Source of the DNA: a virus
Direction: 5' to 3' (one strand)
IMG/VR virus record: IMGVR_UViG_3300037504_000494
Location: 1 to 23,509 of that record
DNA: 23,509 bases
Positions 13,529 to 23,509 of the stretch are shown in pieces (position 1 is the stretch's first letter; the number at the start of each line of letters is the position of its first letter). The translations under genes and the position numbers were made by a program. The notes beneath the pieces were generated by a model. It was not told the origin of the DNA. It did no database searches and saw nothing but the letters and a program-made list of their open reading frames with translations.

Positions 13529-13545
13529 GTGCCGGCTTGGCACTC
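13528..13545 (+). promoter_or_regulatory. Leader hairpin or operator before the DUF115 gene
   Basis: AGTGCC (13528-13533) and GGCACT (13538-13543) form a perfect six-base stem around a five-base loop, ten bases before the AAAGGAGG ribosome site and the ATG at 13565. In RNA it would be a short leader hairpin; on DNA it could be a repressor site for the divergent promoters. Confidence 0.35.
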
Positions 13546-13564
13546 AACTTCCAAAGGAGGACAC

Positions 13565-15208
13565 ATGTCCAGCAGGCTCAAAAGAGCAACCAAGGACGCA
13601 AGCAAAGGATTCACCATCCACCACAACATCAAGGGCGACGTGGTCAAGTCCGACTTCGTCCGCGGCGGGCTGAGCACCCAGCCCGAGTTCTTCATCTACC
13701 GCACCCCGAAGGGCGAGAACGCCCTGGTGGTTAGCGGCATAATGATGCACCCCACCGAAAAACCCAGCGAGGCAGCCCTGGAGTACGCTCAAAAGACCGC
13801 CAACGACTTCCGTCGAATTGGCGGCACGGTAGCCCTGGTCATCGGAGGCGAGCTGGGCTACTTCGTGTCGTACCTGTACGATGAGCTGAGTTCCGACGGC
13901 AACGATGTTCCGCCCGTCATCTGCTACGACGAAATGGTCGGGCTGCAGGACGACCTGGTCGAAAACCGAGACGCCATTCGGTGGGTCCATACCCCAGAGG
14001 ACCTGGACCAGGCCATTCAGCCCTACATCGACGGCGAGGACGAGCACATCGCCGTTTTCATCTGCCCGCACGGCTCCGAGACCTACCGGTTCGAATCGAA
14101 CTACACCCAGAACATTCTCGATCGCAACCTGAACGTCGACTCGATGATGCCCCAGCACATGATCAAGTCCGCCAGGGCGGTGTCGGTTCTCGAGCGCATG
14201 GGCAAAATGCACTTCATTGACGAGCTGTTCGGCACCGTCGAGCCGGACCACATGTGCATCATGTGCACCGGCGGGCCGTCGATGGACCCCGAGTTCGTCG
14301 GCTCGCTCATCGCAGGGCACCCGGACTGCACCCTGGTCGCCGCCGCCCAGTCGCTCGAAAAGCTGAACGGCGTCGGCATCGTGCCAGACTACGCCGTCAT
14401 CGCTGACGTTTCCGACCAGGTGGCCCAACACGCCCTCGACGGCACAGCCGACGGCCTGTGGGCCGAGGCCATGACCAGCCCGAAATTACACGAAAAATAC
14501 GGCAATTCGGCCTACTACTACGCCATCAAGGGCGCCCACATGCACTACCCCCTCTGGCGGGATCTGGGCCTGTGGGTCATGCGAGACACCCCCGCCATGG
14601 CCACCGTCACCGAAGTCATGGTGCTCATCGCTACCCGCATCGGATTCCGCAAAATCCTGCTCGTGGGCGCCGACTACTCCCAGCCCGAAATCGGCGGCAT
14701 GTGCATCATGCCGGCTCTCGGAAACCACGGCGAGCGAGTGTTCACCTACACGCACTACGTCCACGGCGCCCGCTATCTCGACACGTTCGTCGCCCGCAAT
14801 CCGCAGCTCGACTTGGTGCGCTACTCCCCCCGGGGACTTCCCACACCCCACATCCCAGGGCCCGGCAACACCAAGCCTCTGCCGAGAACTCACCGCGAGT
14901 TCGACCCCGAGGAATGGGAAAAGCTCACCGGCGAGCGCTACACCGAAGAGGACTCGCTGGCCAAAACCTCCCGGCCCAAGCTGCTCAGCCTGATCGACAG
15001 GTTTTCAGTCGAAACGCTCATGGCCTGCAGCGGCATGTGCAACCCCAACCATGGCAAAAAGGAACTCGACAGTGTGCCCCAAATCAACAGGCACGTCTTG
15101 ACCCCCCTGGGTAAAAACGAGGGAGCCAAACTAATGCGCGAGGCGGCCAACCGTGTTCGCGCCAGAACACCCCGCATCTGGATGCCGGGGGAAAGGCTTG
15201 ACAAATGA
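13565..15208 (+). CDS. DUF115 / MptE / Maf-like protein (putative glycosyl or phospho-transferase)
   Basis: A 547-residue protein starting at ATG 13565 with an AAAGGAGG site four bases away. Its core matches the DUF115 family (6-hydroxymethylpterin diphosphokinase MptE-like and flagellin-modification Maf proteins): CTGGPSMDPEF with GGPS at residues 236-239, then LNGVGIVPDYAVIADVSDQ with PDY at 274-276, and ILLVGADYS at 364-370 followed by the GxY-type strand. In Maf proteins this core attaches nonulosonic acids to flagellin. It is on the plus strand against the leftward late operon, followed by tiny membrane genes, so it looks like an accessory cargo gene, perhaps modifying a surface structure or a nucleotide-like substrate. 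The substrate is unknown. Confidence 0.75.
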   Translation: MSSRLKRATKDASKGFTIHHNIKGDVVKSDFVRGGLSTQPEFFIYRTPKGENALVVSGIMMHPTEKPSEAALEYAQKTANDFRRIGGTVALVIGGELGYFVSYLYDELSSDGNDVPPVICYDEMVGLQDDLVENRDAIRWVHTPEDLDQAIQPYIDGEDEHIAVFICPHGSETYRFESNYTQNILDRNLNVDSMMPQHMIKSARAVSVLERMGKMHFIDELFGTVEPDHMCIMCTGGPSMDPEFVGSLIAGHPDCTLVAAAQSLEKLNGVGIVPDYAVIADVSDQVAQHALDGTADGLWAEAMTSPKLHEKYGNSAYYYAIKGAHMHYPLWRDLGLWVMRDTPAMATVTEVMVLIATRIGFRKILLVGADYSQPEIGGMCIMPALGNHGERVFTYTHYVHGARYLDTFVARNPQLDLVRYSPRGLPTPHIPGPGNTKPLPRTHREFDPEEWEKLTGERYTEEDSLAKTSRPKLLSLIDRFSVETLMACSGMCNPNHGKKELDSVPQINRHVLTPLGKNEGAKLMREAANRVRARTPRIWMPGERLDK

Positions 15209-15917: not shown

Positions 15918-16144
15918 CAAGCGCCCACGCCGTGAGACCGCTCAGGGCGGCTCATATGGACTCTCAGGGCGTATCCAACATCCCAACCCCGCGCAAGTCG
16001 CACCAGGCGGGCAGTTCCGTGAACGGGCGACGTCAGCGAGAGTGGCGCGGGGGCATTCAAAACCTTCGCGTCGGGAATTTTTCCACAAACCCCCTTCCCA
16101 AGACCCCCCCCCAGGGGTATTTTCACATGAATAACAACGGGGTG

Positions 16145-16252
16145 GAGGGGTGCCGGCCTCGCACCCAGCGCCGTATCCCATGGGCTGCATTCAGTGCTTG
16201 GGCTACACCTGCCGCAGCGCTTCGCTCAGCCGAGAGGAATGCCGGCCTCGCA
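16145..16252. repeat. Direct repeat pair, GAGGRRTGCCGGCCTCGCA
   Basis: Two copies, 16145-16163 and 16234-16252, match at 17 of 19 positions and share a 13-base identical core, TGCCGGCCTCGCA, 89 bases apart. They lie in the gene-free region. Possible roles are protein-binding sites or a remnant of recombination; no third copy was seen. Confidence 0.6.
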
Positions 16253-16422
16253 TAGCCGCCAGCAGAGCGGGTTTGCGGCACGGTCCGATAACCGTGTTTA
16301 TGTAAACTTTTCTGGAATAAGCTGATAATCTGGGCTGTTAGGCTGTATTTCCTAGACTCATTCTAGCATGTGTGCTGCGGGCTACGCTCCAATATGGTGC
16401 AGCTAGAGCTCTCTTGAGGGGG

Positions 16423-16458
16423 TGTCGGAAATCCGACAGTGGGTGCGAAACTACCCAC
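16423..16458. promoter_or_regulatory. Operator-like palindrome followed by a hairpin
   Basis: TGTCGGA-AA-TCCGACA (16423-16438) is a perfect inverted repeat with seven-base arms. Its inner 14 bases differ at one position from GTCGGAATTCCGAC at 11008-11021, which lies in a promoter-like region. Directly after it, GTGGGT (16439-16444) and ACCCAC (16453-16458) form a six-base stem with an eight-base loop. Together they suggest a regulatory node about 50 bases ahead of the AT-rich island. Confidence 0.5.
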
Positions 16459-16555
16459 CCAAGTAGCACGCTTCCCACACTTTGTGCCATCGGTTTGGGC
16501 CGTGGCTTTAATATATACTATTAATAGAAGGAAGGAAGTAAGGAAGGGAAGGACT

Positions 16556-16717
16556 ATGCAAATAGGTCTACTTTGCACAGCAAAATGTACATTTTGCATA
16601 GCACGGAGGGAAGCCACTGCCTGTAAGTGCTTGATTTTACGTGTCCGCTTACCTGGCATGCTATGTGCTACGTATGCAAGGCAGCTAGGATGGACGGGCT
16701 GGTTGGACGGGAGATAG
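16556..16717 (+). CDS. Possible 53-residue Cys-rich small protein
   Basis: ATG 16556 is preceded by a long purine tract with GGAAGG close by, a strong ribosome site, and by an AT-rich island 40 bases upstream. The product starts MQIGLLCTAKCTFC and holds seven cysteines. However, it contains the 18-base palindrome at 16580-16597 and ends within the G-rich tract, so the sequence may be regulatory DNA that happens to be open. I cannot decide; treat it as a candidate leader peptide or small gene. Confidence 0.3.
   Translation: MQIGLLCTAKCTFCIARREATACKCLILRVRLPGMLCATYARQLGWTGWLDGR
16580..16597. promoter_or_regulatory. 18-base perfect palindrome with flanking TGCAAA repeats
   Basis: GCAAAATGTACATTTTGC is a perfect inverted repeat. 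TATGCAAA at about 16555-16562 and TTTGCATA at 16593-16600 form a further inverted pair, and TTTGCA at about 16573 adds a related copy. This cluster of TTTGC/GCAAA words is AT-rich against the surrounding GC, consistent with binding of a dimeric regulator or an origin-type protein. It begins 54 bases downstream of the AT-rich island. Confidence 0.5.
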
Positions 16718-16738
16718 GGAGAGACGGGCTGGGACGGG
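16709..16738 (+). other. G-quadruplex-type tract of five GGG runs
   Basis: On the plus strand GGG runs at 16709, 16717, 16726, 16731 and 16736 are joined by loops of 5, 6, 2 and 2 bases, which satisfies the usual G3N1-7 rule. The tract ends 25 bases before the ATG of the first right-arm gene and is followed by a run of five T. GACGGG is repeated through the stretch (16693, 16706, 16723, 16733). In RNA it would lie in the leader of the early operon. Confidence 0.5.
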
Positions 16739-16763
16739 TTTTTGATGCAGAAAGGGGACGGAC

Positions 16764-16895
16764 ATGGAAGGCATTTACTGGAGCGAGCTGGCCGCGATCG
16801 TGGATATCCTGCCGTGGGCGGGCGGGATTTGCTGCGCCGCGCTGGGGTGCACAGTGGCACTGTTTAGCGGTGCGCGTCGGAAGGGGGGTCGATGA
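16764..16895 (+). CDS. Small single-pass membrane protein (43 residues)
   Basis: MEGIYWSELAAIVDILPWAGG... with a hydrophobic helix at about residues 11-36 and a basic end (GARRKGGR). The ATG at 16764 has AAAGGGG eight bases upstream, and the TGA overlaps the ATG of the next gene (ATGATG), so the two are coupled. It is the first gene of the rightward block. No family is recognised. Confidence 0.55.
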   Translation: MEGIYWSELAAIVDILPWAGGICCAALGCTVALFSGARRKGGR

Positions 16896-17170
16896 TGAGC
16901 CGGCACGAAGACATCATCGAGGCGTGCGAGGCACTCAGCCCGGGCACGCCAGTGCAGGACGTCGTGACGGTCCAGATGGACCAGCCGCACGACGAGCACA
17001 GCCTGGACCCGTGCGACGTGTGCGAGACACGGACGCACGGGGCCCGCTACCGGGTGACCCTGGACCGGACCGGAGACACGCTGTCAGTGTGCGCCGATTG
17101 TGCAGACTACCTGCACACCGGCGAGATCGACCCACTGTACGGACCGCAGCCGGAAGGGGGCGAGGAATGA
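16892..17170 (+). CDS. Small four-cysteine zinc-binding protein
   Basis: A 92-residue acidic protein with CDVC at residues 41-44 and CADC at 67-70, a zinc ribbon or treble-clef spacing with a beta-rich intervening part (ARYRVTLDRTGDTLSV). The N-terminal third is a probable helix (DIIEACEALS). Two adjacent ATGs (16892, 16895) are usable, with a GGGGGG-rich site before them. It is coupled at both ends to its neighbours. This type of small zinc protein is common in phage early regions; a DNA- or protein-binding regulatory role is the likeliest inference. Confidence 0.6.
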   Translation: MMSRHEDIIEACEALSPGTPVQDVVTVQMDQPHDEHSLDPCDVCETRTHGARYRVTLDRTGDTLSVCADCADYLHTGEIDPLYGPQPEGGEE

Positions 17171-17403
17171 AAGCCGCGATTCCAATCGAATGGACAGAGG
17201 TCGCCGACAACGCATGGGAGCATAACGGCGGCTGGTACACAGTACAGGTTGTCGGATGCCCCGATCGCCCATGGATTGTGGACATCACCACTGATGATGA
17301 CACCGAGACGGTCAGCGCGAAGATCGCCGAGCCCACCCTGGGAGGCGCTCTGGAGCGGGCCGGCGCATTTTTGCTTGACTGGCTCGAGTCGCGAGCCGAA
17401 TAG
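17167..17403 (+). CDS. Unknown small early protein
   Basis: A 78-residue product beginning MKAAIPIEWTEVADNAWEHNGGWYTVQV. The ATG at 17167 overlaps the previous stop (ATGA) and has GAGGA just upstream. The first half is beta-like with Trp and Tyr residues, and the second half is an amphipathic helix (LGGALERAGAFLLDWLES). The frame stays open upstream to 16627, but that part has a shifted, arginine-rich composition and overlaps the zinc gene, so I start here. No family is recognised. Confidence 0.55.
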   Translation: MKAAIPIEWTEVADNAWEHNGGWYTVQVVGCPDRPWIVDITTDDDTETVSAKIAEPTLGGALERAGAFLLDWLESRAE

Positions 17404-17405
17404 CC

Positions 17406-17463
17406 GGCAGTAGTCCAGTCGAGGCGTCCGAGTCCGCTCGGGCGTCTCTGCGGGCCTACTGCC
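17406..17463 (+). repeat. Nested inverted repeats between two early genes
   Basis: An outer pair, GGCAGTAG (17406-17413) with CTACTGCC (17456-17463), encloses an inner pair, GAGGCGTCCGAG (17421-17432) with CTCGGGCGTCTC (17437-17448), which pairs at 10 of 12 positions around a four-base loop. The region lies in the 77-base gap before the next gene and could fold as a strong hairpin in RNA. There is no T run, so it is more likely to separate or stabilise the transcripts than to terminate them. Confidence 0.5.
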
Positions 17464-17480
17464 CGAGAAAGGGACGGGAA

Positions 17481-17996
17481 ATGACACGGACACGGACACA
17501 GACGATCGCAAGACAGTGGGTGGACAGTGGGACAGACGTGCTGGAGATGGTCGCCCGGGTGGGAGCAGAAGAACGCGCCGGCTACGAGCTGGACCTGTGC
17601 CTCGAGGTCGCCGAGCGCGACCCGGTGTGGCAGGAGATGCGGGAGCTCGTGGAGCACCACGGCTACAACGAGGCCGAGCAGGCCATGGCCGAGGCGCTGT
17701 CCGAGGCGTTGGCCGACTACGGCGAGCGCATCGACGTGACCGACACGGCCGAGATGCTGGTCAGCCAAGACATCGATCACCAGGACCTCGAGGCCGATAC
17801 CCGCCCCGAAGACATTAGCTCGGCCGAGGCGCTCGCTCGGCTGGATACGAGCAAGACCCTTGCGCAGTGGCGGCGCGAGGCGGTCGAGGCGGGCGACGGT
17901 GAGCTGCTGACTGAGTTCGCGGCCCTCGAGGCGGCCGACCGGATGGACGCCCTTGTCGCGGCCTACGACGCGGCCGTGGCCAAGGCGCAGGACTGA
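17481..17996 (+). CDS. Unknown acidic, helical early protein
   Basis: A 171-residue protein beginning with Thr/Arg-rich MTRTRTQTIARQWVDSG, then strongly acidic and helical (DPVWQEMRELVEHHGYNEAEQAMAEALSEALADYGER, DISSAEALARLDTSKTLAQW). Two to three long amphipathic helices are likely; no cysteines cluster. A GAAAGGG-type site precedes the ATG. It follows the nested hairpin. A role as a phage host-takeover or antirestriction-type acidic protein is speculative; I do not recognise the family. Confidence 0.55.
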   Translation: MTRTRTQTIARQWVDSGTDVLEMVARVGAEERAGYELDLCLEVAERDPVWQEMRELVEHHGYNEAEQAMAEALSEALADYGERIDVTDTAEMLVSQDIDHQDLEADTRPEDISSAEALARLDTSKTLAQWRREAVEAGDGELLTEFAALEAADRMDALVAAYDAAVAKAQD

Positions 17997-18009
17997 GAGG
18001 AGGCGGGAC

Positions 18010-18312
18010 ATGAGCCAGCGAGTGCATTACGACGCGTGGGGGCGGCTATCTCGCGTGGTCGATCTCCCTGACTACGCGATGCGAAAGGCCGGCGAGTGGC
18101 CCATCGGGGCCGTCTGCAGGGCCATCGCCCGCAAGACCGGGCTGACGGTCGTTACCTGCCGGTCGGATGGCTACCGGCTGGAGCAGGATAAGCCAATCGA
18201 GGCCCACTATCAGCTCACTCTCGGCAGCCGCATCGACAAGCGGTTTGGCGGCGGCTACAGCGTCGAGGGCGAGCTATGGGTCGCCGTGCCCATCGGCGGC
18301 TCCCAGGACTGA
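18010..18312 (+). CDS. Unknown early protein, ~100 residues
   Basis: A 100-residue protein beginning MSQRVHYDAWGRLSRVVDLP. The ATG at 18010 has an AGGAGG site seven bases upstream; an in-frame ATG at 17953 would lie in the previous gene. The sequence is mixed alpha/beta with a conserved-looking C-terminal strand pattern (RFGGGYSVEGELWVAVPIGG) and a short helical middle. It lacks cysteines beyond two and has no membrane part. The spacing of 13 bases to the previous stop suggests one operon. The function is unknown. Confidence 0.55.
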   Translation: MSQRVHYDAWGRLSRVVDLPDYAMRKAGEWPIGAVCRAIARKTGLTVVTCRSDGYRLEQDKPIEAHYQLTLGSRIDKRFGGGYSVEGELWVAVPIGGSQD

Positions 18313-18328
18313 GGGGGGAGGGACCACC

Positions 18329-18733
18329 ATGGACAGGTTTAGGAAAGCGCTGGAAATGACGCGAGGCAAGCTAAAGTCTACATTGGAGATAGCGCGAGGC
18401 TACCTGGAGCTGGAGACTGCACTGTCTGCCGCGAGAGCCCAAGGCGCCACCCCATCGGATATGCTGGTGATACTGATAAGTTCTCCGGGCTGCGGCTTTT
18501 GCCGCTATTACTGCTGTGGTCATGGGGGAGGCCTGCCAAATAGATCGAAAGCGTCGCCCTGCCCAGTGGGCGACGTGATAAACGAGGAGACGCCATGCGG
18601 CGCATTCAGCGGAGCTTGTGACGCGGTCGAGGATTACTACAGATCGACCGGCCGCTTGACCTGGACTCATATCGCCGATCTGTGCAGCTACGGCCTGGAT
18701 CTGCTGGATGCGACGGAAGAGAGCAGAGCGTAG
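18329..18733 (+). CDS. Cysteine-rich early protein of unknown function
   Basis: A 134-residue protein starting at ATG 18329, with GGGGGGAGGG upstream. A helical N-terminus (RFRKALEMTRGKLKSTLEIARGYLELE) precedes a cysteine cluster at residues 55-63 (CGFCRYYCC), and further Cys residues lie at about 78, 90, 97 and 116. This pattern could bind zinc or an iron-sulfur cluster, but the spacing is irregular and no family is recognised. DNA at 18552-18575 encodes a short region inside a perfect eight-base-stem hairpin. The neighbouring genes are small early-type genes. Confidence 0.5.
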   Translation: MDRFRKALEMTRGKLKSTLEIARGYLELETALSAARAQGATPSDMLVILISSPGCGFCRYYCCGHGGGLPNRSKASPCPVGDVINEETPCGAFSGACDAVEDYYRSTGRLTWTHIADLCSYGLDLLDATEESRA

Positions 18734-18740
18734 ACCCACC

Positions 18741-18789
18741 GCCCGGGCAGGTGGTGGGGCGGTCGCCCTGCACAGCCGCCTGCTCGGGC
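18741..18789 (+). terminator. Inverted repeat between two early genes, terminator-like
   Basis: GCCCGGGCAGG (18741-18751) and CCTGCTCGGGC (18779-18789) pair at 10 of 11 positions and enclose a smaller GGGC/GCCC stem at 18757-18768. The second arm is followed by only TTTGAGG, so termination would be weak. It may partly separate the Cys-rich gene from the ribbon-helix-helix-like gene. Confidence 0.45.
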
Positions 18790-18812
18790 TTTGAGGTCAG
18801 ACAGAGGGAGCC

Positions 18813-19016
18813 ATGAAAAAGACAGAGAACATTTCAATGAGAGTAGAACCAAGGCAGCGCGAGATCCTTGAGGGACTCGGAAGGGGCTCATACGCCAAGG
18901 GCCTAAGGCGCTTGCTGCGGGCCTGGGAAGAGTTGGAGCGGGGGGCTGAGAACCCAGAAACGGCTACGATGTCCGTGCGGACATTCGTCAGTCTGGTACA
19001 GAGGCTTGTGCCATGA
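18813..19016 (+). CDS. Putative ribbon-helix-helix DNA-binding protein
   Basis: A 67-residue protein with the MKKTENISMRVEPRQREILEGLGRG-SYAKGLRRLLRAW arrangement: one beta strand (ISMRV) with an N-terminal basic part, then two helices with a turn at GRGSY. This is the Arc/MetJ/CopG ribbon-helix-helix pattern, and dimers of this type bind palindromic operators. It would be a candidate to act on the palindromes seen elsewhere in the window, but that link is untested. GAGGGAG precedes the ATG, and its stop overlaps the next ATG (ATGA). Confidence 0.55.
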   Translation: MKKTENISMRVEPRQREILEGLGRGSYAKGLRRLLRAWEELERGAENPETATMSVRTFVSLVQRLVP

Positions 19017-19363
19017 ATGGCGAGACACCGCTGGACCTGCTAGCTGACGTCTGGCGCGAGTACATCATCAATCACGCAGCGCACATCATGAAGCGCGCCC
19101 AAGAGGGCGATCCGGAAGCGAAAAAGGTCCTCGACGCGCACTTCCGGGCCTTTGACGACGTGGGCACGAGCAGGCAGGGGAAGTCAATCCTGCTGCTCGA
19201 GGCGGCATTGCGCTGCCACGATGTAGCCACACACGGACAGACGAAAACGTGTGCCTGGTGTGGTAGGGTGCTCAAAGAAGGAACACCGCGGGTCATATCC
19301 CACGGTATTTGCGACGAATGCGCGGCCGAGCAGTTTCCCGCGGATTCGCCCTTGACAAGCTGA
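19013..19363 (+). CDS. Unknown helical protein with C-terminal four-cysteine zinc site
   Basis: A 116-residue protein. Residues ~1-70 look helical (LLADVWREYIINHAAHIMKR). The C-terminal part has CAWCGRVLKEG at 80-83 and SHGICDEC at 96-103, giving C80, C83, C100 and C103, with H97 nearby. This CxxC-SHGICxxC shape recurs in small phage and bacterial proteins and should bind zinc. It is coupled to the ribbon-helix-helix-like gene by an ATGA overlap, so the pair may act together as regulators. The substrate or partner is unknown. Confidence 0.6.
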   Translation: MNGETPLDLLADVWREYIINHAAHIMKRAQEGDPEAKKVLDAHFRAFDDVGTSRQGKSILLLEAALRCHDVATHGQTKTCAWCGRVLKEGTPRVISHGICDECAAEQFPADSPLTS

Positions 19364-19368
19364 CCATC

Positions 19369-19489
19369 ACCGGGCACTGACCCGGTATGCTGCACCAGGG
19401 GACACCTAGATCCGCAAGCGACATACGCCCCGGCAGGGCCTGACCACCATCCCCGTCCCCTGGTGTGTTGGGCCCTGCCGGGGCCTTTT
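19369..19489 (+). promoter_or_regulatory. Structured leader with interleaved inverted repeats before the exonuclease gene
   Basis: A short stem ACCGGG/CCCGGT (19369-19374, 19381-19386) comes first. Then arm A (CACCAGGGGAC, 19393-19403), arm B (GCCCCGGCAGGGCC, 19427-19440), arm A' (GTCCCCTGGTG, 19455-19465) and arm B' (GGCCCTGCCGGGGC, 19471-19484), in that order, each pair perfect. A-A' and B-B' interleave, so they can form a pseudoknot or, if exclusive, alternative folds. B-B' is followed by CCTTTTG, like an intrinsic terminator. The ATG of the exonuclease gene is 15 bases after this. Confidence 0.65.
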
Positions 19490-19503
19490 GCGTGGAGGTG
19501 CGC

Positions 19504-20472
19504 ATGCTGAGCGAAGAACAGTTGGCCATTCGGAAGACCGGGGTGTCGGGCAGCGAGGTGGCCGCCGTGGCCGGCCTGAGCCCCTGGAAGAGCCCGCAAG
19601 ACGTATGGGCTGACAAGCTGGGGCTATCGGAACCCCTCGAGCAGAACGAAGCGATGGAGCGCGGTAATTACCTCGAGTCGGCCTTGCTGCGGTGGATGGC
19701 CGACCGCGAGGGGGTCATCATCGACACAGACCAGCAGACCATCCGGTCGCCGGACCACGATCTGGTCATCGCCACACCGGACGGCTTATGCTACCTGCCG
19801 ACGGACGACACGGGACCGGTGGCCGTCGCCGAGGTGAAGTCGCCCGGGTGGCGGACAGCTCGAGACTGGGCCGATCCGCAAGCAGTTCCGGACGGAATTC
19901 CCACGTACTACCTCCCGCAGGTGACGTGGGAAATGGCGGCGGCCAACCTGGACCAGGCCATCGTCGGCGCGCTGTTGGGCGGCAAGCTGCAGACGTACCG
20001 GGTGGACTTCAATCCGGACCTCTACCAAGCCCTGCTGGGGAAGGTGGAGCCGTTCTGGGAGTACGTGCTCAGGCGCGAGCCGCCGCCGGTGGCGCCCGGC
20101 ACGGCCGACCCCGGCCGGTGGCTGCGTCAGTTCTACTCGCAGCAGACCAGCGACGAGGTGCTCGAGCCGGAGGGCGAGCAGCTCGAGCGCATCCAGCGCT
20201 ACGTCAGCGACTACGACGACGCCCGCGAGCTGGAAAAGCGGGCCAAGGAGAAGAAAAACCTGGCTGCCGCACGGCTGCAGGAGATCATCGGCGAGCGGCA
20301 GGGGATAGCCGGCGGCAAGTTCAAGGTCACCTGGAAGCAGTCGAAAGACCGAGAGGTCGTCGACTGGAAAGCCGTGGCGGCCGACGCCGACGTGGCCGAG
20401 ACGCTTATCGAGCAGCACACCGAACGCAAACCGGGGTCACGGCGCTTGACCGTCACCCTGAGAAAGGACTGA
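19504..20472 (+). CDS. YqaJ-type viral recombinase / 5'-3' exonuclease
   Basis: A 322-residue protein with the YqaJ (lambda exonuclease-like) nuclease pattern: GVSGSEVAAVAGLSPWKSP near the start, E58 in GNYLE, D93 in TPDG, E110-V-K112 in AEVKSP, and PQVTWEM (Q139). These are the metal and DNA-end residues of the PD-(D/E)XK superfamily. It would chew one strand from double-strand ends to expose a tail for the adjacent annealing protein. The last third is helical (ELEKRAKEKKNLAAARLQE). I start at ATG 19504 with GGAGG upstream; a longer frame from 19465 would translate the structured leader. It is the first gene of the recombination cassette. Confidence 0.85.
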   Translation: MLSEEQLAIRKTGVSGSEVAAVAGLSPWKSPQDVWADKLGLSEPLEQNEAMERGNYLESALLRWMADREGVIIDTDQQTIRSPDHDLVIATPDGLCYLPTDDTGPVAVAEVKSPGWRTARDWADPQAVPDGIPTYYLPQVTWEMAAANLDQAIVGALLGGKLQTYRVDFNPDLYQALLGKVEPFWEYVLRREPPPVAPGTADPGRWLRQFYSQQTSDEVLEPEGEQLERIQRYVSDYDDARELEKRAKEKKNLAAARLQEIIGERQGIAGGKFKVTWKQSKDREVVDWKAVAADADVAETLIEQHTERKPGSRRLTVTLRKD

Positions 20473-20476
20473 ACCG

Positions 20477-21487
20477 ATGGAGCCGACCGAGATCATGACC
20501 GCCGGGCAGAGCCCGGCAGTCGCACAGCAAATCACCCAGGCAGAAGTCGACATGCAGGTGGCCACCGCCAAGAAGTTCCCCCGGTCGCTGGACCGGGCCG
20601 TCAAGGCCGCCAAAACAATGGCGACGAAAAGCCAGCAGATCGCCGAGGGGTGCTTCTACGTGCTGCCGCGGGCGGGCAAGAAAATCCAGGGCCCCTCGGT
20701 ACGCCTGGCGGAAATCCTGGCCAGCACCTGGGGCAACCTGCGGGCTGAATCGCGCATCGTGGAAGAGGGTGCCCGGCACGTCACTGCCCAGGCGACCGTC
20801 TGGGATATGGAGACGAACGTGCTGGTGCGCCAGGAAATCCGTCGGCGCATCACCAACCGCGACGGCAAGCGCTACAACGACGACATGATCAACACCACGT
20901 GCCAGGCGGCGACGTCCATCGCGCTACGCAACGCCATGTTCCGGGTGGTGCCGCGCTCCATCATCGACGAGGTCTACCAGACCGCCCGGCAGGTGGCCGT
21001 CGGTGACGCCCAGACGCTGGACAGCAGGCGCACCCGCATGGTCGAACAGTTCAGCAAGCTGGGCGTCGACCAGGAGCGCCTGCTCGCTCGCATCGGCGTA
21101 GGCGCCTTGGCCGACGTCGGCCTGGACAAGCTGGAGGACCTGATCGGCCTGTTCAACGCCATCCGCGACGGCGAAATCACACTGGATGACGCCTTTCCGG
21201 AGCCGCAGGCCACCGACAAGGACGACGAAAAAGAGACCTCGAAGCCCAGCAAGAGCCGCAGCCAGGAGGTGGCCGAGGCCATCGGCGGTGGGGCGAAGTT
21301 GAGCTTCGGCGACGTCGAAAAGCAGGCCAAGGCGGCCAAGGTGCCAGACGAGGCCATGGCGGCATTCATGTCCAGCTGCGACATCAACCCGCAGGACAAG
21401 CGCACCTTTACGGCGAAGCGGCTCGAGGCACTGGCGGCCATGATCGACGACTTCGCCGAAAACGGCGCCTCGCAGGACGGTGACTGA
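20477..21487 (+). CDS. Putative single-strand annealing protein (recombination partner of YqaJ)
   Basis: A 336-residue protein four bases after the exonuclease. A family often found with YqaJ in phages is recognised by the N-terminal core: ATAKKFPRSLDRAVKAAKTMAT, GCFYVLPRAGKKIQGPSVRLAEI, TAQATVWDMETNV, RRRITNRDGKRYNDDMI, and ATSIALRNAMFRVVP. The likely role is to coat and anneal single-strand DNA at the ends made by the exonuclease, as in RecT/ERF-type systems; I infer this from pairing, not from a named domain. A helix-turn segment (LGVDQERLLARIGVGALADVG) and a lysine/acidic linker precede a C-terminal helical tail. Confidence 0.65.
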   Translation: MEPTEIMTAGQSPAVAQQITQAEVDMQVATAKKFPRSLDRAVKAAKTMATKSQQIAEGCFYVLPRAGKKIQGPSVRLAEILASTWGNLRAESRIVEEGARHVTAQATVWDMETNVLVRQEIRRRITNRDGKRYNDDMINTTCQAATSIALRNAMFRVVPRSIIDEVYQTARQVAVGDAQTLDSRRTRMVEQFSKLGVDQERLLARIGVGALADVGLDKLEDLIGLFNAIRDGEITLDDAFPEPQATDKDDEKETSKPSKSRSQEVAEAIGGGAKLSFGDVEKQAKAAKVPDEAMAAFMSSCDINPQDKRTFTAKRLEALAAMIDDFAENGASQDGD

Positions 21488-21765
21488 TGGACTACTACAA
21501 CCTAGCGACGCCCATTGAGAAAGACGGCAAGACGTATTGGACCCGCTGCGGGGTGATGTTCGAGACCAAAAGCGGCAAGGGATTCAACATCATCCTGAAC
21601 AGCTTCCCGGTCAACGGGAGGCTGGTGGCGAACAAAAACATCCCCAAGAACTACTACCGCACCAGCCACGGCGGCGACGAGGACTACGAGCGCGGCTACG
21701 GTCGGCCCCAGGGCGAGTACGGCAACGACGACCAGCCCATCAACGAGGAAGACATCCCGTTCTAG
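21487..21765 (+). CDS. Small protein with SSB-like acidic tail, putative single-strand DNA-binding protein
   Basis: A 92-residue protein whose ATG shares one base with the upstream TGA. The N-terminal ~50 residues (NLATPIEKDGKTYWTRCGVMFETKSGKGFNIILNSFPVNGRLV) look like a small beta-barrel with a K-x-Y-W-x-R start, of the kind seen in small DNA-binding folds. A flexible Gly/Tyr/Asp region follows, then the ending INEEDIPF. Bacterial SSB proteins end in D/E-D-I-P-F, which recruits partner enzymes. The tail, plus position in the exonuclease, annealing and initiator cluster, suggests a phage SSB-type protein. It is shorter than normal SSB and the OB fold is not proven. Confidence 0.65.
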   Translation: MDYYNLATPIEKDGKTYWTRCGVMFETKSGKGFNIILNSFPVNGRLVANKNIPKNYYRTSHGGDEDYERGYGRPQGEYGNDDQPINEEDIPF

Positions 21766-21878
21766 GGCCCGGGGTGGTCCCGGGTGGCCGGCATAGCCAG
21801 AAAATGGTGTTCGTCTGCGACTCAGGGGCGCCGCTGGCCCGCCCCGTTTTGAAAAAAAATTGTGTTTGGCGGTGACGA
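21766..21878 (+). promoter_or_regulatory. Gap before the initiator gene, with an inverted repeat and A-rich tract
   Basis: The 113-base gap starts with a GGGCCCGGGGTGGTCCCGGG stem (CCCGGG at 21768-21773 and 21779-21784). It then holds GTTTTGAAAAAAAATTGTG at about 21846-21864, which is unusually A/T-rich for this genome. GGTGA at 21871 may be the weak ribosome site of the next gene. It could act as a terminator plus the opened region of an origin; neither is proven. Confidence 0.4.
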
Positions 21879-22730
21879 ATGAAGAACGGCCATCTTCTGA
21901 AATCCAGCAAGCTTGTGCGCTCCAAAAAGTGGAGGCAAATTCCAGACGACACCACGCGTTGGGTCTACTGCATCTTGGTCGGCGCAGTTGATTCGTGGGG
22001 TATGCTCCCGGCAGATCCGGGAACCCTGAAATCCACACTGGCGCCATTCTCCGACCACTCCGTACAACTCCTGACTAGGTCCGTACAACTCCTGACTAGG
22101 ATCGGACTTGTACGGTACTGGAAGCACCAGGGAGATCCATGGATTTACATTGAGGGGCACGACGAAAACCAGCGACTTAGAAGAAGAAAAGGCTCACCGG
22201 ACGTCCCAAGACCAGACAAGTCCAGTACAACTCCAGACCAAGACGGGAGTACTCCAGCACAACTCCCGACTAAGATCACCTATGACTTAGACTTTGACTT
22301 GGACTGTGACTGTGACGCGGACAGCGCGCGAGCACGCAAGCACGACCCGATGTTCGACACCACGCCACCACCACCAGACACACACACACCAGCCTACACA
22401 GTTCCGGACGGACACGAGCAGACCATCCAGCGCCTTCGGGAGCACCACGCCAAGCTGCACAACCTCAAGCCGAGGGGTTTCCTGCAAGACCCCGACCTGC
22501 TGATTCGCATCTCAAAGGTGCTGACCGAGTACGGCGAGCACGGCGCCACGCGCATCATCGACGAGCACCACCGCCAGGTGGTCAAGGGCGACATCCCGAA
22601 GAAGGCCCGCGGGTTCAAGTTCGTCTTTCCGGGCCTCAAGGACCGGCCCCAAGAGCCTGATTGGGATTGGCTGGCCGAACGCGAGGGCGGGCAGAGCCCC
22701 GTCGACAGCTGGACGGGGGGGTTGGTTTGA
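21879..22730 (+). CDS. Putative replication initiator / helicase loader
   Basis: A 283-residue protein just before a DnaB-type helicase gene. The N-terminal ~95 residues resemble the winged-helix N-terminus of phage replication initiators: KKWRQIPDDTTRWVYCILVGAVDSWGMLPADPGTLK, a recognition-type helix region, and IGLVRYWKHQGDPWIYIEGHDENQRLR. A middle part (residues ~105-175) is low complexity, with DLDFDLDCDCDAD, and the C-terminal part is helical and basic (DLLIRISKVLTEYG..., KKARGFKF). It would open the origin and deliver the helicase. Residues 61-67 and 68-74 are identical (SVQLLTR), from a 21-base tandem repeat; see the iteron entry. The lower-GC DNA of this gene differs from its neighbours. 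Confidence 0.7.
   Translation: MKNGHLLKSSKLVRSKKWRQIPDDTTRWVYCILVGAVDSWGMLPADPGTLKSTLAPFSDHSVQLLTRSVQLLTRIGLVRYWKHQGDPWIYIEGHDENQRLRRRKGSPDVPRPDKSSTTPDQDGSTPAQLPTKITYDLDFDLDCDCDADSARARKHDPMFDTTPPPPDTHTPAYTVPDGHEQTIQRLREHHAKLHNLKPRGFLQDPDLLIRISKVLTEYGEHGATRIIDEHHRQVVKGDIPKKARGFKFVFPGLKDRPQEPDWDWLAEREGGQSPVDSWTGGLV
22059..22274. repeat. Iteron-like repeat cluster inside the initiator gene (candidate origin)
   Basis: A 21-base unit is repeated exactly in tandem at 22059-22079 and 22080-22100. Its core, GTACAACTCCTGACTAGG, recurs with 15 of 18 matches at 22225-22242 and at 22257-22274, and TTGTACGG (22108-22115) is an inverted copy of part of it. The copy at 22225 is read in a different frame from the first two, so the conserved thing is DNA. 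GGGAGT (22245-22250) and ACTCCC (22262-22267) add a small stem. This layout recalls lambda, in which the origin iterons lie inside gene O. Confidence 0.6.
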
Positions 22731-23509
22731 GGCTCGACCGGCAAGACCGCGAGGTGGCGATTGTCGCAGCGCTGCTCATCGGCGAGATGATGGGCCAGGG
22801 CACGATGGACTCCCACGCCATCGAGCCCAGCGAACTGCGCAACCGCGACTTGGCGGCCCTGCTGAGTTCCATGCAGGCGCTGAAAGCGGACGATAAGCCA
22901 GTCGACCCGCTTACCGTCAGCGATGAGCTTGGCGAAGAAAAACTGAAAAACCTAGCATTTTCAATAACCGACGGACAAATACTTCCCGGCGATGAGGTTA
23001 TTGAGGGGTGGATTGAGCAGCAGCGCGAGGAGAACTCGGCCCGGACGTGGACCGAAATGCTCCACCGGGCCGCGAAGGGGCTGGAGCAGGGAACTCACAC
23101 CGTGGCCGAAATTTTGGCCTCTGTGGACGATTTCAGAGCCGCTGAGGCTCTTCGCGGGGCTGAGGTATGCCCGCATAAGGATGCGATGTCAGAAGCCCTC
23201 AGAACCATCGAGAGCGCGTCTGAGGGGAAAAGTGTGCCAAGTGTGCCAACTGGTTGTGTCGATTTTGACACACATGGTCTGCTCGAAGGCGAATTGACCT
23301 ACATCGCAGCCTATCCGTCGGTTGGCAAGACTGAGTTGGCGCTGACCATGGCAACTGGAGCGGCCAAGGCTGGCAGCGGGGTGCTGTTTGTCACCGCGGA
23401 GATGTCCAAACAGATGCTTATCATCCGGGAGCTGAGCGCAGCGAGCGGAGTGGACGCCGACCGCATTGTGCGGGCAACCATGGGTAGCTACGAATTCGAC
23501 AAGGTAATC
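22727..23509 (+). CDS. DnaB-type replicative helicase (partial, C-terminus beyond window)
   Basis: The frame is open to the window end (261 codons). I start at TTG 22727, which overlaps the TGA of the initiator gene and follows a GGGGGG tract; a GTG at 22754 is another option. The N-terminus (DREVAIVAALLIGEMM) is the alpha-helical domain seen in DnaB; the RecA-like core begins GLLEGELTYIAAYPSVGKTELALTM with Walker A YPSVGKT (K at residue 201) and continues GVLFVTAEMSKQMLIIRELS, the DnaB-type helix/strand region with an acidic residue (E) at the expected place. The complete Walker B and later motifs are outside. It would form the ring helicase at the fork with the upstream initiator as loader. 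Confidence 0.85.
   Translation, partial: MRLDRQDREVAIVAALLIGEMMGQGTMDSHAIEPSELRNRDLAALLSSMQALKADDKPVDPLTVSDELGEEKLKNLAFSITDGQILPGDEVIEGWIEQQREENSARTWTEMLHRAAKGLEQGTHTVAEILASVDDFRAAEALRGAEVCPHKDAMSEALRTIESASEGKSVPSVPTGCVDFDTHGLLEGELTYIAAYPSVGKTELALTMATGAAKAGSGVLFVTAEMSKQMLIIRELSAASGVDADRIVRATMGSYEFDKVI

Follow-up and report, generated by a model that had tools for sequence, protein, structure and literature searches.

What are repeated DNA sequences doing inside the gene of a phage replication initiator? The question is raised by a 23,509-bp virus contig (IMGVR_UViG_3300037504_000494; hereafter the window, to which all positions refer), in which an earlier note had pointed to iteron-like repeats within a gene lying just before a helicase, and had likened them to the lambda origin in gene O. 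We examined the gene, its repeats and its distant relatives, and weighed an origin against other functions that such repeats might serve.

The initiator gene and its neighbours

Four features define the protein-coding context.
21879..22730, plus strand: phrog_1408-type replication initiator gene, 283 aa, assigned by homology
21879..22199, plus strand: N-terminal winged-helix domain (codons for aa 1-107)
22053..22100, plus strand: codons of predicted helix 3, aa 59-74, containing iterons 1 and 2 (low-confidence model and alignment)
22661..23509, plus strand: ORF of the DnaB-like helicase, running off the end of the window, its true start probably near 22727-22733

The initiator ORF matched phrog_1408 (E=2e-5) and phrog_2149 and no other PHROGs family, and its aligned motifs agree with the N-terminal winged-helix domain of phrog_1408-type proteins. 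When a family profile of N-termini was built with the window protein left out, it recovered this protein as the sole match among 280 six-frame stretches (E=6.5e-9). Searches with the initiator returned no Pfam family at E<=0.1 and, by sequence, no relative in the PDB. Together with the DnaB-like helicase encoded directly downstream, recognized by homology, the two family matches bear out the earlier suggestion of a replication initiator gene placed just before a helicase. Upstream of the initiator gene lie a YqaJ/RecE-like exonuclease gene and one for a phrog_3657 protein; an inverted repeat with 12/12 complementary arms (19425-19486) surrounds the start of the exonuclease gene (19465) and is possibly a hairpin or an operator. 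Farther away, a 559-aa ORF on the plus strand (13529-15208), flanked by the terminase region on one side and the early genes on the other, may resemble DUF115/MptE-like proteins.

A single-sequence AlphaFold model of the initiator (mean pLDDT of 41) placed secondary-structure elements in the order H-E-H-H-E-E across aa 24-93, which fits a winged helix, and in the same low-confidence model a helix at residues 59-74 falls where a winged helix has its helix 3, which is often the recognition helix. Between the conserved P and GLV, the alignment shows a stretch equal in length to that of relatives such as L048, and the tandem unit encoded here therefore replaces ordinary helix residues rather than forming an insertion.

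Repeats on both strands and in two reading frames

The repeats and the sequences between and beyond them are arranged as follows.
22059..22079, plus strand: iteron 1, TCCGTACAACTCCTGACTAGG
22080..22100, plus strand: iteron 2, the same 21-mer as iteron 1 (TCCGTACAACTCCTGACTAGG), in perfect tandem
22104..22115, minus strand: inverted core copy, GGACTTGTACGG, an 11/12 inverted match to CCGTACAACTCC
22161..22190, plus strand: A-rich tract between the two iteron clusters
22212..22223, plus strand: weak and uncertain core-like site, CCAGACAAGTCC, 9/12
22222..22242, plus strand: iteron 3, TCCAGTACAACTCCAGACCAAG, one base out of frame
22253..22274, plus strand: iteron 4, TCCAGCACAACTCCCGACTAAG, sharing its frame with iterons 1 and 2
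22269..22308, no strand assigned: the 40 bp with the lowest stability in 21840-22320, just past copy 4, and a candidate for the unwinding region
22283..22316, plus strand: short tandem array TGACTT x5.7, the equivalent of the 4-8-bp arrays found in other members of the family

The two perfect 21-base units and two diverged copies described in the earlier note were all recovered, copies 3 and 4 each matching the 18-mer GTACAACTCCTGACTAGG at 15/18 positions; the tandem pair at 22059-22100 is the top-scoring tandem repeat of the window (score 84; runner-up 64). The core, GTACAACTCC (in copies 3 and 4, GTACAACTCC or GCACAACTCC), runs in frames 0, 0, 1 and 0 through copies 1-4, and copy 3 alone is thus out of frame, as had been proposed. 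The inverted TTGTACGG mentioned alongside is also present and extends further than described, forming part of the 11/12 inverted core at 22104-22115. Copies 1 and 2 fall inside the predicted DNA-binding domain and copies 3 and 4 in the linker; the two copy-bearing regions share one core and sit 142 bp apart, with spacings within the clusters of 21 and 32 bp, or 2.0 and 3.05 helical turns.

Every core copy in the 23.5-kb window is confined to one 215-bp stretch of the initiator gene, and a search of both strands of the 23,509-bp window for the 12-mer core with at most one mismatch found none outside the iteron stretch. Within 22051-22271, 28 pairs of 12-mers agree at 11/12 or better, against nine in the next best 220-bp stretch. 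We compared these patterns with synonymous shuffles, in which the protein was kept and codons were shuffled from either own-codon or pooled-codon sets (1000 each). The inverted match arose in 0/1000 shuffles with own codons and 0/1000 with pooled codons, and so did the joint match of copies 3 and 4 at 16/20 (0/1000 and 0/1000); the core pair of copies 3 and 4 appeared in 0.5% of own-codon and 0% of pooled-codon shuffles. The repeats, present on both strands and in two frames, therefore exceed what the protein can account for, in agreement, for copy 3, with the earlier claim that protein sequence cannot explain its conservation.

Repeats of this kind might have arisen neutrally, through recent tandem duplication and slippage in a loosely constrained linker, with copy 3 as a frame-shifted leftover. 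Copies 1 and 2 are identical, as expected after recent duplication, and the linker is low in complexity and tolerant, but slippage cannot yield an inverted copy, and helix 3 is equal in length to that of ungapped relatives such as L048, which argues that the repeat was not simply inserted. The recurrence of one core in two regions 142 bp apart, and of similar layouts with unrelated sequences elsewhere in the family, likewise speaks against neutrality, which we consider very unlikely. Still more improbable, in our estimate, is a function in RNA, whereby copy 2 and the inverted copy would form an mRNA hairpin regulating translation or termination: 22081-22115 does fold at -13.9 kcal/mol (z -3.7), but such a hairpin needs one copy only and leaves copies 1, 3 and 4 unexplained, 16000-23509 holds no Rfam match, and no terminator-like site was found at the hairpin. 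Lambda iterons likewise form potential hairpins (PMC7466680), a further point against reading this one as an RNA element.

The A-rich tract to which the earlier note had drawn attention is present at 22161-22190, but within 21840-22320 the stability minimum over 40 bp falls at 22269-22308 instead, and the TGACTT array sits among the least stable coding DNA of the window. An array of equal score at the equal place was found in 1/500 and 8/500 shuffles; some 6-bp array at this site, often a weaker one, emerged in 156/500 own-codon shuffles, as part of the array is implied by an Asp-Leu repeat in the protein. Taking lambda's unwinding region and the A+T-rich regions known from iteron plasmids (PMC5043065) as models, we propose the array after copy 4, and not the A-rich tract, as the likely unwinding element. 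The single-strand TnnT code of the DnaD type (PMC10201434) was considered for this array, which by eye does not show it.

Distant members of the initiator family

Searches of viral contigs with the initiator, its N-terminus, the helicase and the terminase found no close relative. Against phages, tblastn gave no match for the whole initiator and only an unconvincing one for the N-terminus (E=1), and the only match among 398 whole genomes reached 32% and contained four stops. Distant family members were therefore gathered from whole genomes by family, together with named phages, giving a survey of 30 members from phages and prophages plus the window; this modest sample includes some near relatives and is not phylogenetically independent, and for prophage members the ORF start was picked automatically. 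Two further leads were set aside. A scan of viral DNA for tandem GTACAACTCC returned 11 viral contigs, none encoding the initiator and mostly carrying protein-coding repeats; in two of them (L018:3733-3800 and L019:3577-3604), a phage integrase gene bears at its 5' end direct GGTACAAC and inverted GTTGTACC copies that resemble sites of a recombinase or repressor and are unrelated to the protein of the window. Among fecal records, the relatives of the helicase were for the most part bacterial-type DnaB genes with no initiator alongside.

The same plan, built from unrelated sequences, was found in the distant members, many of which carry linker repeats past the winged helix. These repeats commonly have a period of 10-11 bp, which rotates the reading frame, and their copies are often out of frame or inverted; the earlier expectation that repeats would persist at the DNA level with shifting frames thus holds in many of the 30. 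Clusters beyond synonymous shuffles were found in ten family genes (L045, L049, L052, L056, L057, L061, L063, L065, L066 and L085), in the initiator-like genes L002, L006 and L010, and clearly among the named phages F10, JBD44, PapayaSalad, Gsput1, Louie, Acinetobacter SR, VvAW1, Nitzel, ct4oC223, Vibrio 1.131 and Sahara, with the qualification that in L006, L063, L085, VvAW1, F10 and JBD44 the short array, not the iterons, supplies all or most of the signal. Examples of iterons are an 11-bp GATACCGGTCC in L061, a 10-bp GCACGTGCAA in L057 and a palindromic GCGGAAnTTCCGC in mycobacteriophage Nitzel. The cluster signal was weak in HK639, Mx8 and Hum25, and no significant cluster was detected in L048, L051 and L055, whose open frames are short, or in L050, L068, L084 and L086. 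Annotation places a DnaC-like loader, a DnaB-like helicase or another DNA helicase directly beside the family gene in members that include F10, Louie, Mx8, JBD44, Hum25 and Gsput1.

A tandem array of 4-8-bp units is present in 27/31 family genes (window included), compared with 67/620 synonymous shuffles and 31/362 control ORFs. Its units include GGAAG, CTGATTC, GGAACAG, AAGGA and others, and it usually lies directly 3' of the iterons. Across L065, L066, L068, L052 and L086 and the phages JBD44, F10, HK639, Louie, Aurca01 and Bordetella IFTN1, a CTGATTC array (protein SLIPDSLIPDS) is shared by many of the initiator genes; actinophages and others carry GGAAG or GGAACAG arrays, apparently making two classes of element. 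Linker repeats and the short array are features of this survey, outside the published family definition, and the literature covered consisted of open-access papers, so a prior description of the short tandem array is possible.

The iterons in the window's helix 3 codons have counterparts in some other members. Copies of the linker iteron occur in the codons of residues about 59-76 in Nitzel (GCGGAACTTCCGC, 0/200 shuffles), Acinetobacter SR (p=0.005), PapayaSalad (p=0.05) and Sahara (p=0.065), and the in-domain copies of the window were matched in 0/200 shuffles. Pooled over 31 genes, an in-domain match was seen in 15 genes against 10 expected; because this excess is small, we claim in-domain iterons for individual phages only and regard them as a lead for the family. 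By the alignment, the helix at about 59-76 is a variable part of the domain, and possibly the protein just accommodates DNA sites at two places, this helix being one of them. Tentatively, and with more doubt than confidence, these observations can be read as a widespread, sequence-independent layout of phrog_1408-type genes, in which linker iterons that are palindromic or have a 10-11-bp period would be followed by a 4-8-bp array for unwinding or helicase loading, and to which some phages (the window, Nitzel, Acinetobacter SR and possibly Sahara and PapayaSalad) would add iterons in the codons of the predicted recognition helix, tying protein and site together in evolution.

A probable origin within the gene of its presumed binding protein

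The repeats might alternatively be sites at which the initiator, or another DNA-binding protein of the phage, autoregulates the replication operon, with initiation elsewhere, for example in the unstable region between the gene blocks (16289-16705). Operators too occur as direct and inverted repeats, and 16506-16705 is the least stable region of the window and holds the GAAG array at 16527-16553. The repeats, however, are situated some 180-400 bp into the gene, 21700-22760 yielded no sigma-70-like promoter, the 16.3-16.7 kb region is free of core copies, and the plan recurs inside the initiator genes of many phages, all of which makes purely operator function improbable. Considered in itself, 16289-16705 lies between leftward structural and rightward early genes, has the lowest duplex stability of the window and carries GAAG x6.5 as a purine array (16527-16553) without copies of the iteron core; it is possibly a promoter region or a second unwinding site. 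GC skew of the window was uninformative.

As a whole, the locus is best explained, and we think with high probability, by 22059-22316 being the phage replication origin or its main part, inside the gene of its presumed binding protein; the alternatives of a purely regulatory operator, neutrally duplicated repeats and a hairpin in RNA are each less likely. From the sequence patterns we infer binding by the initiator, melting, helicase loading and origin activity, which could proceed as follows. The winged-helix domain would bind the GTACAACTCC iterons, two in tandem and one inverted in the first cluster, and two helically phased in the linker in the second. Several assembled initiators would then distort the DNA and open the low-stability TGACTT array 3' of the last iteron, where the C-terminal part of the initiator, or a loader that the window did not reveal, may place the DnaB-like helicase encoded downstream.

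In its best reading, this design — iterons and a putative unwinding element within the initiator gene — is lambda-like. The lambda origin and its Stx-phage versions have iterons in the middle of gene O and an adjoining AT-rich, easily unwound tract, with a helicase-loading gene downstream in lambda (PMC7466680). The window differs from lambda in its iteron sequence, its inverted copy, the location of one cluster inside the predicted DNA-binding domain and a presumed unwinding element that is a 6-bp tandem array in GC-rich DNA. Family-level searches of Pfam (E<=0.1), PHROGs and the PDB gave no match to the lambda O family; the resemblance drawn in the earlier note thus stands for design but not for descent, and we describe the locus as one that would work like ori-lambda and do not file it as a lambda O member. 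In layout it may also be likened to SPP1 oriL, whose direct repeats and AT-rich unwinding element lie inside gene 38, which encodes the origin-binding protein (PMC6316719); SPP1 has a second origin, oriR, and none was seen in the window fragment. For lambda and SPP1 oriL alike, an origin of this design is proven.

The phrog_1408-type phages F10, JBD44, HK639, Mx8, PapayaSalad, Nitzel, Sahara and Acinetobacter SR share with the window a winged helix, repeats near its end, a short array and, often, a helicase or loader downstream; the window protein is very diverged from theirs (a profile match only) and the iteron sequences are unrelated. Plasmid iterons typically lie outside rep, and the window initiator matched no plasmid Rep family in Pfam. 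Iteron plasmids with Rep initiators nonetheless resemble the window in having repeats that are usually helically phased, next to an unwinding region (a predicted one in the window), and the A+T-rich region of lambda is strand-asymmetric (PMC5043065). For mycobacteriophage repA, which is outside this family comparison, an origin has been argued to lie in or next to the gene (PMC7157519).

Most phage origins are unmapped, and iterons past the winged helix followed by a short array offer a simple sequence rule for predicting them. The rule applies across a large family of initiators from phages and prophages, where synonymous recoding separates origin from protein. Where iterons lie inside the domain, one may ask how a site co-evolves with the helix that possibly reads it, both being written in the same bases. 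If the reading of these iterons is true, the DNA encoding the protein's specificity would itself be one of that protein's binding sites.
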